Below are positions 3,578-26,985 of a DNA stretch of 61,839 bases, one piece after another; positions within the stretch are counted from its first letter, which is position 1, and each line of letters starts with the position of its first letter. Location: positions 1 to 61,839 of the forward strand of contig QCUA01000004.1 of the NCBI GenBank assembly GCA_003210915.1, given 5' to 3'. The notes beneath the pieces are model-generated. The model ran no database searches. It worked only from the letters and a program-made list of their open reading frames with translations, and was not told the DNA's origin. The position numbers and the translations under genes are program-made. Source of the stretch: Prochlorococcus sp. AG-676-L21 (GTDB taxonomy: Bacteria; Cyanobacteriota; Cyanobacteriia; PCC-6307; Cyanobiaceae).

Positions 3578-3725
3578 AAATTCCCTCAAACTTTAGTGAT
3601 ACAAAGACAACTGACCTATTTTACTAAGGAAATTAATTTATTTACAAAACTCTCTCAACGCCCAAAAAACCCTTACTATCATGATGTTTAGCTGTTTATT
3701 CAGCATCGTTACAAGAATTTAACCG

Positions 3726-8542: not shown

Positions 8543-9775
8543 ATGCCTGATAAATTTTTTGGAGGGTTGGATTTTGGGACTAGCGGCGCAAGAATATCCA
8601 TAATTAATCATCAAAAGGAATTAAAATATTCAAATTCAGTTCCCTATGAATATGGCTTTAAAAATCCAAAATCTTGGATTAATTCTTGTGAAAATCTTCT
8701 AGACAATTTACCTCATTACATAAAAAATAAAATTATTAATTTGGCAATCTCTGGCACCTCTGGAACTTTAACAGCTTGTAATTTAAGAGGAGATCCGATA
8801 GGAGAAGCTATACCTTATGATCAACCATGCAATGAAAATAAAATTCTCATTGAATCCATCACGGTTGGAGAAGATCATTTACAAACCCCATACAGCAGTC
8901 TCGCTAAAGCATTAAAACTAATAGATAAGTTTGGTGAAAATATTCTTTTAAGACATCAATCCGACTTCATAAATGGCTGGTTTTTGAAAAATTGGAAATA
9001 TGGAGAAGAAGGTAATAATATCAAGCTTGGTTGGGATCTAATAAAAGAATCTTGGCCAAAAAGTTATCTCAATACTTCATGGCAAAAATGCTTACCTAAA
9101 ATAATTAAAAGTGGAAAAATCTTAGGTCAAATCGATACTGACTTAGCAGAAAAGTTCAAATTAAATAAGAAGATAATATTAGTCTCAGGAACAACTGATT
9201 CAAATGCAGCTTTTTTAGCTGCAGGTTTGGGAAAAGAGGAAGGTCTAACAGTGTTAGGAACCACAATCGTAGTTAAAAAAATTAATAAGACCCCAATAAA
9301 AGAGAAGGGAATTACAACTCATCGAGTAAGTGAAAACTGGGTATGTGGAGGGGCATCAAATGCTGGCTGTGGAGTTTTATCTCAATTTTTTTCTGATTTA
9401 GAAATAAAAGAACTTAGCAGACAAATAAATACCTCAAAAAAAACTTCCCTTAATCTTTTACCACTCAACAGTAGAGGTGAGAGATTTCCTGTTAATAATC
9501 CTTTTTTAGAACCAATTCTTAGCCCTAGGCCAGTAAGCGACTCACTTTATTTACAAGCATTATTCGAGGGGTTAGCAAGAATTGAATTAAAAGGATGGGA
9601 AAAACTTTATGATCTGACAGGTTCATTTCCAAAAAGAATTGTTACTACTGGTGGAGGTTCAAAAAATCCTCAATGGAGAGCAATAAGAGAACGAGTTATT
9701 AATATCCCTATAGTTTCATGTAAAAAAACGACTTCATTTGGGACGGCTTTATTAGCAATTAATCCAAATCAATAG
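8543..9775 (+). CDS. FGGY-family carbohydrate kinase
   Basis: 410 residues. The N-terminal ATPase-fold phosphate motif GGLDFGTSGARISI and the C-terminal adenosine motif TGGGSKNPQW place it in the FGGY kinases (ribulokinase, xylulokinase, glycerol kinase relatives). It phosphorylates a sugar or polyol. The plant/cyanobacterial branch closest in pattern has D-ribulose kinase activity, but the substrate here is inference. It is coupled to metK by a 6-bp gap. Confidence 0.85.
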   Translation: MPDKFFGGLDFGTSGARISIINHQKELKYSNSVPYEYGFKNPKSWINSCENLLDNLPHYIKNKIINLAISGTSGTLTACNLRGDPIGEAIPYDQPCNENKILIESITVGEDHLQTPYSSLAKALKLIDKFGENILLRHQSDFINGWFLKNWKYGEEGNNIKLGWDLIKESWPKSYLNTSWQKCLPKIIKSGKILGQIDTDLAEKFKLNKKIILVSGTTDSNAAFLAAGLGKEEGLTVLGTTIVVKKINKTPIKEKGITTHRVSENWVCGGASNAGCGVLSQFFSDLEIKELSRQINTSKKTSLNLLPLNSRGERFPVNNPFLEPILSPRPVSDSLYLQALFEGLARIELKGWEKLYDLTGSFPKRIVTTGGGSKNPQWRAIRERVINIPIVSCKKTTSFGTALLAINPNQ

Positions 9776-9867
9776 ATTTCCTTCGTTAAATCTTTAATCA
9801 AGATATAAAAATTTAATGAAAAGGGTTTCACAAACTACACATCTTAATTTAGAGTATAGAAGTTATA

Positions 9868-9940
9868 GCCGGGATAGCTCAGTTGGTAGAGCAGGCGACT
9901 GAAAATCGCCGTGTCCCCAGTTCAAATCTGGGTCCTGGCA
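9868..9940 (+). tRNA. tRNA-Phe (anticodon GAA)
   Basis: 73-nt cloverleaf. The acceptor GCCGGGA pairs imperfectly with TCCTGGC and the discriminator is A. The D arm is AGCTCAGTTGGTAGAGC, the anticodon stem-loop is GCGACTGAAAATCGC with anticodon GAA, and the T arm contains GTTCAAATC. An intrinsic terminator starts 8 bp downstream. Confidence 0.96.
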
Positions 9941-9948
9941 CCTTTATA

Positions 9949-9972
9949 AACCTGTCATTGACAGGTTTTTTT
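9949..9972 (+). terminator. Intrinsic terminator after tRNA-Phe
   Basis: 8-bp stem AACCTGTC / GACAGGTT with a 3-nt loop and a T run at 9966-9972. It lies between tRNA-Phe and the convergent secreted-protein gene and may help to end both transcripts. Confidence 0.85.
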
Positions 9973-9996
9973 GTGAATATTTATAAATTTAAATTT

Positions 9997-10416
9997 TTAA
10001 TTATCAACTCTACATACTTGACGAATCACACCCAATATTAGTTGGTCTCCATTTGGATCTTGCCAATCAGCAAGATTATTTAAACGACTATTTTTCTCAT
10101 CTGTGAAAACATCAACATCTCTAAAAGATTTTTCAAAACAATTTATGTCCATTGTGTAAAGAATATCTTGTGTTATTTCACTTTTAGTTTTTGGAATAAA
10201 TTTACTCAATACCCTAACAGATCCATCTTCATTCCTTTTTATACTTTTTCTATCCCATAATTGTTCACCGTATTCACTAATTGGAACCCCAACCCAATCA
10301 TGAGAAAAAGCATATGATTGTTTTATTGAAATACAAAAAGAGCAAATTATAGACAGAACTAAAGACAAGAAATTAACAACAAGTTTTGATGAAAAGATAT
10401 TCTTGGCTTGAATCAT
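9997..10416 (-). CDS. Small secreted protein, surface-adhesin E-like (tentative)
   Basis: 139 residues from the ATG at 10416; a longer frame to a TTG at 10482 adds an unlikely hydrophobic leader. The N-terminus is a clear signal peptide (KLVVNFLSLVLSIICSFC then a cleavage region near QSYAFS). The mature part has a W near its start, the stretch YGEQLWDRKSIKRNEDGSVRV, and two later cysteines (INCFEK, RQVCR) that could form a disulfide. The layout resembles short periplasmic 'surface-adhesin E' proteins, but that is a weak family guess. Function unknown. Confidence 0.7.
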   Translation of the reverse strand: MIQAKNIFSSKLVVNFLSLVLSIICSFCISIKQSYAFSHDWVGVPISEYGEQLWDRKSIKRNEDGSVRVLSKFIPKTKSEITQDILYTMDINCFEKSFRDVDVFTDEKNSRLNNLADWQDPNGDQLILGVIRQVCRVDN

Positions 10417-10642
10417 AATATTTTTGAATATTGAAATCAATAAATTGAATTTTTGAAAAGAATAAATATTATTAATTATCAATTTTGATTCAGAATTTAC
10501 TAATTTAGTTTGCTTAAAATCTAAATTTAAAAAAAATAAGATTATAAACTTTGTAAAAAATTTTATTGATTACTATTTCTATTATAGATACAATCAACTA
10601 TTAATTTCTAAAGTTAGCTTTCAAAAAATTTTCGGACCAATA

Positions 10643-11278
10643 ATGAATAAAATTCAAAAATTCCTCTCAATAGTTTTTTTTGTAGCAATATTTGTTGTAT
10701 TAATTTATTTCATACAAAACTATGGCATTGAACCTCTTAGGAACAAGGTAGAGAGTATGGGAATATGGGCACCTTTTGGAATATTTGTTCTAAGAGGAGT
10801 AAGTATAATTTTACCTGCTCTCCCAAGTTCGGCATATTCACTTCTCGCTGGCTCCTTACTAGGATTCCAAAAAGGTTACATAACAATTATCTTTTCTGAT
10901 ATCGTTTTTTGCCAAGCAGCTTTTTTTATAGCAAGATATTTTGGTCGTGATCCTGTACGTGGTTTAGTAGGCTCAAAAGCTATGAAAAGAATTGAAAGTT
11001 TTAATCAAAACCAATTAGAAGAAAATTTCTTCCTAATGACAGGTCTTCTAATGACTGGACTTTTTGATTTTCTCAGCTATGCAATAGGTATTGGAGGAAC
11101 TCGGTGGAAAATATTCACTCCAGCTTTACTAATAAGTCTTCTAATCAGTGATTCTATTCTTGTTGCTGTTGGAGCTGGAGTCAGTCAGGAAGCAGGTTTA
11201 TTCCTAGGAATAGCTCTTTTAGGCATGTTTGCATTAGCAACTATTTCAGGTTTAGCAAAAAGAAGAATTCCAAAATAA
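10643..11278 (+). CDS. TVP38/TMEM64 (VTT-domain) family membrane protein
   Basis: 211 residues and about six hydrophobic segments. The VTT-type core is visible: FVLRGVSIILPALPSSAYSL, then GSLLGFQKGYITII and a re-entrant-like FFIARYFGRDPVRGLVG. Family members (DedA/TVP38/TMEM41) are linked to lipid scrambling and envelope homeostasis. The substrate here is unknown. It stands alone between a divergent secreted-protein gene and a small unknown gene. Confidence 0.87.
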   Translation: MNKIQKFLSIVFFVAIFVVLIYFIQNYGIEPLRNKVESMGIWAPFGIFVLRGVSIILPALPSSAYSLLAGSLLGFQKGYITIIFSDIVFCQAAFFIARYFGRDPVRGLVGSKAMKRIESFNQNQLEENFFLMTGLLMTGLFDFLSYAIGIGGTRWKIFTPALLISLLISDSILVAVGAGVSQEAGLFLGIALLGMFALATISGLAKRRIPK

Positions 11279-15447: not shown

Positions 15448-16695
15448 ATGAATGATATTTCTGCTTATATAAATTCAGCAATATTAAAAATTCCATTTAA
15501 TTTATTTAATATAATTTCTGAGTATATAGAATTGAATAGTAGAGTTAAAGTTGCTATTGTAGGTGGCTATATAAGAGATTTATTAATCACTAAAATACAT
15601 AAAAAGACTTTTTTTAAACCACTCGATATTGATATAGTTACAGAAGGATCTTCAGTTGATTTAGCAAAATTCATAAAAAAAAATATCTCAAATGTTGAAC
15701 TTTGTTTGATAAAAGAATTTGAAATATACGACACTGTAGAACTAAATATTAATGATTTAAAAATTGATATAGCTTCTGCAAGAAAAGAGAATTATGAATC
15801 TCCAGGATTAAATCCAATCGTAAAACATGCAAATATTGAAGAGGATTTACAAAGAAGAGATTTTAGTATCAATGCAATAGCTTTTGAATTCTCAAAGCAA
15901 GAAATTTATGATTTTTTTGATGGCATAAAACACATAGAGGAAAAAGAATTACATTTGCTGCATGAAAATAGTATTCAAGATGACCCTAGTAGATTGATAA
16001 GATGCGCAAGATATGCTTCCAGATTAGGTTTTAAAATTTCAAATAAATCACTTCAACAATCTCAAAGTATTGTCCAAAGATGGCCATGGGAAATTAAAAA
16101 CGATGATACTAAATCTAGATTTCCGCCTGGCATAAGTATAAGAATTAGGATGGAATTGTCAGAAATATACAAATACGATAATCTTGCAAAAATAGTTTCT
16201 TTATTAAATGATTGGGAAATTATTTCTATCCTTAATAAAAATATTATTGTTAATAATAAATTTTTAAGGGGTTTAAAGTGGATTAAAAAACTAAATGGTA
16301 ATTATATTCTCTACATATTAAAAAATTCAGAAAATTTAGAGCTTACTTGTCAAAGATTTTTTATTAATAGCAGGGAAAAGAAAATTCTCAAAGAGTACTT
16401 AAGTATCACAAATCAATTAGAAAATGAAAAAGAAAAATTTCTCTATTTAACCCCCTCGCAATGGACTGAATTTATTGAAACAAAAAATTTAGATGAAGAG
16501 ACAGTGAAATTATTAATTTGCAATGGGGGTTTATTTTGGAAATCATTTTTTAAATGGCTTTTTATTTTTAAATTTATCAAGTCAAAGAAAAGTGGAGAAT
16601 TTTTAAAAAGTAAAGGGTGGCAACCGGGGAAAGAAATGGGGGATGAAATTAAAAGGTTGAGATATATAGAGATCGATAAGATCAAAAAGAAATAA
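15448..16695 (+). CDS. cca: CCA-adding enzyme / poly(A) polymerase family nucleotidyltransferase
   Basis: 415 residues, class II tRNA nucleotidyltransferase. Seen: VAIVGGYIRDLL (G39-G40), the metal-binding DID at 60-62, the conserved QRRDFSINAIAFEF, and RLIRCARYASRLGF. None of the four tRNA genes here encodes its own CCA, so such an enzyme is needed. Sequence alone does not show whether this copy adds CC, A, the full CCA or poly(A). The lysine-rich C-terminus is poorly conserved. Confidence 0.87.
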   Translation: MNDISAYINSAILKIPFNLFNIISEYIELNSRVKVAIVGGYIRDLLITKIHKKTFFKPLDIDIVTEGSSVDLAKFIKKNISNVELCLIKEFEIYDTVELNINDLKIDIASARKENYESPGLNPIVKHANIEEDLQRRDFSINAIAFEFSKQEIYDFFDGIKHIEEKELHLLHENSIQDDPSRLIRCARYASRLGFKISNKSLQQSQSIVQRWPWEIKNDDTKSRFPPGISIRIRMELSEIYKYDNLAKIVSLLNDWEIISILNKNIIVNNKFLRGLKWIKKLNGNYILYILKNSENLELTCQRFFINSREKKILKEYLSITNQLENEKEKFLYLTPSQWTEFIETKNLDEETVKLLICNGGLFWKSFFKWLFIFKFIKSKKSGEFLKSKGWQPGKEMGDEIKRLRYIEIDKIKKK

Positions 16696-22561: not shown

Positions 22562-23296
22562 TTGAACAATTCACTCTCACCAAAAGCAATAAGAGAACTT
22601 AGAGAAGAAACTTGTAATCCTCTCGGTGCTCCCCAAGTCACTACCGACTTAAGCGAAAATATTATAATGACAAGTTTAGATGACCTTCACAACTGGGCTA
22701 GATTAAGTAGTCTATGGCCACTTTTATATGGAACTGCATGCTGTTTTATAGAATTTGCAGCACTCATAGGGTCTCGATTTGACTTTGATAGATTTGGCTT
22801 GGTACCTAGAAGCTCCCCAAGACAAGCAGACTTACTAATTGTTGCTGGAACAGTCACAATGAAAATGGCACCAGCATTAGTAAGATTATATGAGCAAATG
22901 CCAGAACCAAAATATGTCATTGCCATGGGAGCTTGTACCATAACTGGTGGAATGTTTAGTGCAGACTCAACAACAGCAGTTAGAGGAGTTGATAAATTAA
23001 TACCAGTTGATTTGTACCTTCCTGGATGCCCCCCTAGACCAGAAGCTATTTTTGATGCTGTAATAAAATTAAGAAAAAAAGTTGCTAATGAGAGTATTCT
23101 TGAGAGGAGTAAAGCTGAACAAACTCATAAATATTTAACTGTAGATCATGAAATGAATCTTATTTTTTCAGAAAACACTGGTGAGTATTTAAATAAAAAA
23201 TCTAAAAAGTCAATTGAATCTTCTAATCTTAATCAGATAGAAGAAAGTAGTGAAAATATTTATGAAAAAAATTCTATAGATAAAGAAATAAAATAA
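22562..23296 (+). CDS. ndhK: NAD(P)H-quinone oxidoreductase subunit K
   Basis: 244 residues, NuoB/PSST type. The N2 [4Fe-4S] ligands are C60, C61 (GTACCFIEF), C125 (MGACTITGG) and C156 (LPGCPPRPE). The first 35 and last ~50 residues are less conserved and polar. A TTG start at 22562 puts it 4 bp after ndhC; its stop overlaps the ndhJ ATG by one base (TAATG), so coupling is expected. Confidence 0.96.
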
Positions 23297-25314: not shown

Positions 25315-26134
25315 ATGTATTTAAAGACAAATTGCTCTATATACATTTTGAAAAAAACAAAACATGTCGTAGAAACCAATAATCTCTCAATTAGTTGGGG
25401 AGAACTTAATGTACTAAATAAAATTAATTTAAAACTTTATGAAGGAGAAAAATTAGCTATTGTTGGCCCTTCAGGTTCTGGGAAATCAACTATATTAAAA
25501 ATCTTGGCAGGTTTGATTTTACCCACTGCGGGTGAGTTAAGCATATTTGGACAAAAACAAACTTACTTAAGATTAGATCAAAATAATCCTCCAGATGTAA
25601 GATTAGTTTTTCAGAATCCTGCTTTATTAGGATCTTTAACTATTGAAGAAAATGTAGGCTTCATACTTCAAAAGAACAAAAATTTATCCAAGAAATTTAT
25701 TCAAGAAATTGTAAGAGAATGCTTAGAAGAAGTAGGATTATTTAATGTTGAAAAAAAGCTTCCAAATGAATTAAGCGGTGGTATGCAAAAAAGAGTAAGT
25801 TTTGCAAGAGCGTTGATTAGAGATCAAGATTCAGATAAAAAAAAGTCAGCCATTATTACTTTTTGATGAACCTACTGCTGGTCTTGATCCTATTGCTTCA
25901 TCAAGAATTGAAGACTTAATAAATAAGACAAATAATAAAGCCAATGGATCATCCATTGTTGTTAGCCATGTTCTTAGTACTATAGAAAGGACTTCAGAAA
26001 AAGTTGTTATGCTTTATGGAGGTAAATTCAGATGGGCTGGTTCGATTGATGAATTTAAAAAGAGTGATGATCCTTATGTTTTTCAATTTAGAAATGGGAA
26101 ACTTACTGGACCGATGCAACCAAAAGACATTTAA
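25315..26134 (+). pseudogene. MlaF-like ABC transporter ATP-binding protein interrupted by a frameshift
   Basis: Walker A GPSGSGKST and the signature LSGGMQKRVSFARAL are in one frame, which stops at 25866 after a short nonsense tail. Walker B and D-loop (LLLFDEPTAGLDP), the H-loop (VVSHVL) and the C-terminus are in the +1 frame, ending at 26134. The switch falls at a run of eight A (25837-25844). Seven A would give a normal ATPase of about 272 residues. The cause may be a true mutation, a sequencing error or transcriptional slippage. The start is uncertain (ATG 25315 or TTG 25348). mlaD follows 5 bp later, so it looks like the ATPase of an MCE lipid transporter. Confidence 0.85.
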
Positions 26135-26139
26135 AAATT

Positions 26140-26985
26140 ATGCGTAGAAGCTTAAGAGATTCGATAGTAGGATTTTCCTTGTTAGGGGGAATATTAGTAT
26201 TTACATTTTTTTCATTCTGGTTGAGGGGTGTAAAACTATCTTCAAAAAATTGGTATCTTTTTGCAGAATTTAACAATGCAAGCGGTTTATCAAAAAAATC
26301 TCCAGTGACTTACAGAGGGATTTTAGTAGGTTCAATTGAGGATATTCTATTTACTAATGAATCAATCAAAGCAAAAATTGTTTTAAATAATCCTGACATT
26401 ATTCTCCCCAAACCAGCATTCGCAAGAGTTGTTACTAATTCATTTCTAGGAGGTGATGTTCAAGTTGCATTAGAAACGAATGAAAAAACAATTCCAAAGA
26501 ATACTGCCAAAGCTATATCAGAAAAATGCGATAGTAAATTAATTATTTGCCAAGGAGATACTATTACTGGGAAGCAACTTTCGAGCCTCTCAAATATTAC
26601 TAACAGGATAAATCAACTACTTAAGGAATCAAATCAAGAAAATTTAATTGAAAATGTAGTTAAGTCAATAGACCAATTTGATAAAACACAAGAAAATCTA
26701 GATGAACTAATTTATTTATCAAAGCAAGAAATTATTAGAATTAAACCTCTTATAAAAGAAGTAACCATAGCAGCAGGCCATTTAAACAATATTTTGTCTA
26801 CCCTCAATGACGAAGAAACTCTTAAAGATATTAAATTGACAATCGGAGCAGCTGAATCAATATCAGGCAAATTTGATAACATGAGTGATGATTTTGAACA
26901 ATTAATGAAAGATAAAGAATTAACTAAATCTATAAGAGATTTAACAATTGGATTATCAAAATTCCTTAATGAGATTTACCCATGA
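26140..26985 (+). CDS. MCE/MlaD-domain protein
   Basis: 281 residues: a short cytoplasmic N-terminus, a transmembrane anchor (about 10-28) and an MCE domain (about 37-120) with the typical YRGILVGSIEDI. A helical, coiled-coil-prone tail follows. MCE proteins bind the permease/ATPase pair and carry lipids between membranes. It is directly downstream of the MlaF-like gene. The permease (MlaE) is not in this window. Confidence 0.9.
   Translation: MRRSLRDSIVGFSLLGGILVFTFFSFWLRGVKLSSKNWYLFAEFNNASGLSKKSPVTYRGILVGSIEDILFTNESIKAKIVLNNPDIILPKPAFARVVTNSFLGGDVQVALETNEKTIPKNTAKAISEKCDSKLIICQGDTITGKQLSSLSNITNRINQLLKESNQENLIENVVKSIDQFDKTQENLDELIYLSKQEIIRIKPLIKEVTIAAGHLNNILSTLNDEETLKDIKLTIGAAESISGKFDNMSDDFEQLMKDKELTKSIRDLTIGLSKFLNEIYP

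Follow-up and report, generated by a model that had tools for sequence, protein, structure and literature searches.

The split ATPase gene and its neighbor

In the window, by which we mean the whole stretch of 61,839 nucleotides analyzed here, we characterized a gene for an MlaF-like ABC ATPase that spans positions 25315-26134 of the forward strand and is broken at a tract of eight adenines (A8, 25837-25844). The first frame starts with ATG at 25315 and ends at a premature TGA at 25864-25866, so that the 5' part (25315-25866, forward) encodes 183 aa as assembled, with the tail SDKKKSAIITF before the stop. It scores above the gathering score of PF00005 (E = 6.1e-28) and contains Walker A (GPSGSGKST), the Q-loop and the signature motif (LSGGMQ), whereas Walker B and the H-loop occur only in the next frame. 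This 3' part (25838-26134, forward) lies in the +1 frame, reads KKSQPLLLFDEPTAGLDPIASSRIEDL...SIVVSHVLSTIERTSEKVVMLYGG...MQPKDI and stops at 26132-26134. It runs through LLLFDEPTAGLDP, which is followed by SIVVSHV and the C-terminus, and thereby supplies Walker B (LLLLFDEP), the D-loop and the H-loop (SHV). No second lesion or extra stop was found in the frame between 25838 and 26134. Both frames match a single intact protein of 272 aa in the complete genome G014, the first with 91% identity to residues 1-183 and the second with 93% identity to residues 175-272, and the split is far above what chance would produce. Immediately downstream, at 26140-26985 on the same strand, is an MlaD-family (MCE-domain) gene of 281 aa that matches PF02470 (E = 2.3e-15) and is 97% identical to its G014 counterpart over the full length. 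An initial annotation had described an ATPase split at the A8 tract, with Walker A and the signature motif in one frame and Walker B, D-loop and H-loop in the next, a downstream half free of further damage and an intact MlaD gene behind it; translation and comparison with G014 bear out each of these points.

The name given to the ATPase requires a qualification. It is appropriate in that the product is an ABC ATPase, but even the intact G014 homologue misses the cut-off of the NCBIfam MlaF equivalog NF008809 (129.8 vs. 441 bits). Since PDB matches of the intact homologue include the MlaF subunits of known Mla complexes (6xbd and 7ch8) while its score is far under the equivalog cut-off, "MlaF-like" is the proper term. 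The locus resembles MlaF/Ttg2A-type systems, in which the ATPase acts with MlaD and MlaE as an MCE lipid transporter, in that the ATPase gene directly precedes an MlaD-family gene. It differs from them in the low equivalog score and in the location of mlaE outside the cluster (in G014, about 280 kb vs. 1,276 kb). All of 10 good relatives have an MlaE-family permease, in G014 far off on the chromosome; it was not found in the host draft, itself 81% complete. Among other genomes of the genus, G152 (100% complete, 2 contigs), G176, G005 and G117 have an MlaE-family match and no MlaD-family match, and the MlaF matches of G152 and G176 are at paralogue level only. In these four genomes, the mlaF-mlaD pair has either been lost or replaced, or it sits in a gap or outside the sequence covered by the search.

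The adenine tract in related genomes

When the locus was compared with 150 other genomes of the genus at the DNA level, the nearest relatives (~95% identical) aligned over 819 bases vs. 820 in the host draft. Every related locus that was read keeps the tract in frame. Most of the nearest relatives have A7 followed by G, and others have an interrupted tract; a somewhat more distant group has A8 followed by T or C, still in frame; and the larger remaining group is without a long A run. An A8 tract is by itself compatible with normal decoding, because the more distant relatives carry it in frame. Counting the tract in sister strains, a check proposed in the initial annotation, showed the shift in none of the relatives checked.

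Protein searches gave the same picture. The ATPase gene was detected in at least 213 of 266 genomes of the genus, and among the matches listed for these genomes, together with a recheck at low scores, only the host draft (G000) had two matches in two frames. Other short or low-scoring matches proved on rechecking to be contig ends or diverged sequences and were not split. In high-quality relatives, the gene is present in 50 of 51 by DNA and in at least 82 of 87 by protein at 1e-60. Because only the host draft is split among the matches listed, the shift is private as far as seen, as a homopolymer indel confined to one draft would be. In addition, no frameshift was found in the same gene neighborhood of 80 relatives over 116,249 aligned residues.

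Two contigs from other genomes in this set were observed to have a sequence near one end that recurs, inverted, near the other, namely G012:C36 (3-577, forward, and 10534-11108, reverse) and G097:C30 (205-777, reverse, and 9631-10203, forward). Such end repeats are what chimeras formed during amplification would be expected to leave in single-cell assemblies.

Further frameshifts in the host draft

The host draft consists of 72 contigs. Comparison with G014 (1,657,990 bases) covered 33 contigs and 1.0 of 1.37 Mb, and yielded nine candidate frame changes in 815 matched genes. Four of the nine are clean +1 homopolymer insertions: the A8 of mlaF, a G7 in glpX, an A6 in menD and a C10 in radA. The glpX insertion (contig C9, about 23167-23234) is private, with an in-frame six-base equivalent in eleven other genomes, and that in menD (contig C26, about 3659-3699) is likewise private, close relatives having A5 or a five-base equivalent. 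The radA insertion (contig C8, about 15913-15917) was compared with G014 only, which is one base shorter. The C10 is a C run within an AT-rich coding gene, where G014 reads ATTCCACCATT; several bases beside it also differ, indicating that the draft and G014 differ there by more than one insertion. One-base homopolymer indels therefore recur in conserved genes of this draft, and those in glpX, menD and radA are probably assembly indels that would mislead annotation. The remaining five candidates were not counted. On contig C18, the candidate lies at the 5' end of an ORF resembling a metallophosphoesterase, has one base more than G014 within a short A run and possibly reflects a start-site effect; on C1, a long protein differs at its C-terminus, where either genome could carry the change; on C2, the difference is in a start region; and the matches on C6 and C20 are diverged. 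The reverse control returned four candidates in G014 relative to the draft, one of which is the same C1 difference. Among the genes of the window, no other coding frameshift was found relative to G014, which indicates that the assembly is good over the rest of this stretch.

The identity of the affected genes is informative. GlpX is the F/SBPase of the Calvin cycle, and photosystem I depends on MenD for its phylloquinone; both glpX and menD are expected to be needed by a phototroph. Given this expected need, a living cell broken in glpX, menD and mlaF at once is improbable, second copies of glpX and menD having been sought by DNA similarity only.

The number of lesions can also be set against published values. 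From its contig number and completeness, we infer that the host draft is a single-cell genome. In benchmark cultures, a Prochlorococcus single-cell workflow is reported to give 3.0 indels per 100 kb on average (PMC6122165), a rate that predicts about 1.9 indels in a stretch as long as the window, and P. marinus has been reported among the cleanest (PMC5519541). One frameshift in 62 kb, and ~4 clear ones in 1.0 Mb, are not above the published rate. The case thus resembles the homopolymer indels described for single-cell and draft assemblies (PMC6122165; PMC5519541) in being a one-base homopolymer change private to one draft, and in belonging to a set of several across unrelated conserved genes at a frequency inside the published range.

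Origin of the extra adenine

In mlaF, a private insertion affects a homopolymer, and the draft holds further private +1 homopolymer insertions elsewhere. These observations point to a technical rather than a biological cause, and the extra A is very probably an indel from genome amplification, sequencing or assembly, a judgment made from the genome sequences compared here. Because the break is unshared by the relatives examined and similar slips affect important genes, a sequence error is the most likely explanation, and not a new form of gene control. The initial annotation had offered three readings, namely a very recent change, a read error and RNA polymerase slippage as a means of expression control. 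The evidence agrees with the first two but does not support the third, since the shift is unshared by the relatives checked, A8 is common, slippage mostly acts in the other direction and equivalent insertions occur in a G run and a C run.

A true mutation in one genome would look identical to an artefact, and a real, very recent replication-slippage event, in this cell or among its closest kin, that left a non-functional allele comes second as an unlikely alternative. Homopolymers are naturally prone to such mutation, and the downstream half of the ATPase holds one private amino-acid codon and five other private codons in 96, similar to relatives; there is thus no measurable decay, and the change is either unreal or very recent. 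Moreover, some genomes of the genus lack both an MlaD match and any strong MlaF match, suggesting that certain lineages may do without the gene pair. However, the +1 insertions in glpX, menD and radA would on this account require several independent and partly lethal mutations in a single cell, and the ATPase gene is kept in nearly all high-quality relatives by either search.

It is far less probable that the eight adenines are real and fixed in the lineage and that RNA polymerase slippage restores the frame in a share of transcripts, lowering expression of the transporter. Such a mechanism would have parallels in insect endosymbionts, where polyA-tract frameshifts of Blochmannia and Buchnera are reported to be rescued, with about 30% full-length transcripts (PMC3017870). 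As in those cases, the genome is AT-rich, the frame change lies in an A tract and the gene is otherwise intact, with a clean downstream frame. In contrast, the endosymbiont shifts can be common to populations or species and come with transcript data (PMC3017870 and works cited there), whereas the shift here is private, its tract is one of hundreds equal or longer, and the accompanying lesions affect G and C runs. Conservation of the frame change in related strains, which would be expected of a slippage site, was not observed by DNA or protein search in the loci read and the matches listed. The A8 is also not special: the 726 genes of the draft that are intact relative to G014 contain 309 sense-strand A runs of at least eight (and 54 T runs), and the A runs would undergo equal slippage. 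In a large fraction of genomes, selection against A/T runs prone to slippage first shows at a length of nine, although this threshold is organism-dependent (PMC1088944); the run here has eight. Homopolymer slippage mainly inserts bases and, in E. coli and Buchnera, is confined to A/T runs (PMC5574713). The mlaF lesion would need the loss of one A (or the gain of two), and the lesions of glpX and radA, lying in G and C runs, would not be accounted for by slippage. The proposal of slippage as expression control, which if true would mean slippage-dependent expression in a free-living cyanobacterium, is consequently disfavored. Less credible still is a programmed ribosomal frameshift at this tract. 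The zero frame of the assembly does read A_AAA_AAG, matching the classical pattern of a -1 slippery heptamer, but a -1 shift leads into 24 codons of unrelated sequence followed by a stop (VSHYYFLMNLLLVLILLLHQELKT), and the continuing ATPase frame would require a +1 or -2 shift. Furthermore, where the tract is A7, as in the nearest relatives, the heptamer falls out of phase, and many relatives are without any run. Taken together, slippage and ribosomal recoding account for a very small share of the probability. Independent translation of the 3' part was also considered and rejected, as its first in-frame start codon, an ATG at 26009, lies behind Walker B and the H-loop; this ground also led us to reject a functional split gene.

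The preferred explanation, then, is a one-base homopolymer insertion that would have been introduced into the A8 tract during genome amplification, sequencing or assembly. More generally, lone homopolymer frameshifts in draft marine cyanobacterial genomes call for caution and should be compared with relatives and with the draft's other genes before a pseudogene or recoding site is called. The organism itself would most likely possess an ordinary, intact MlaF-like ATPase gene, the product of which may work with MlaD and MlaE in lipid transport.
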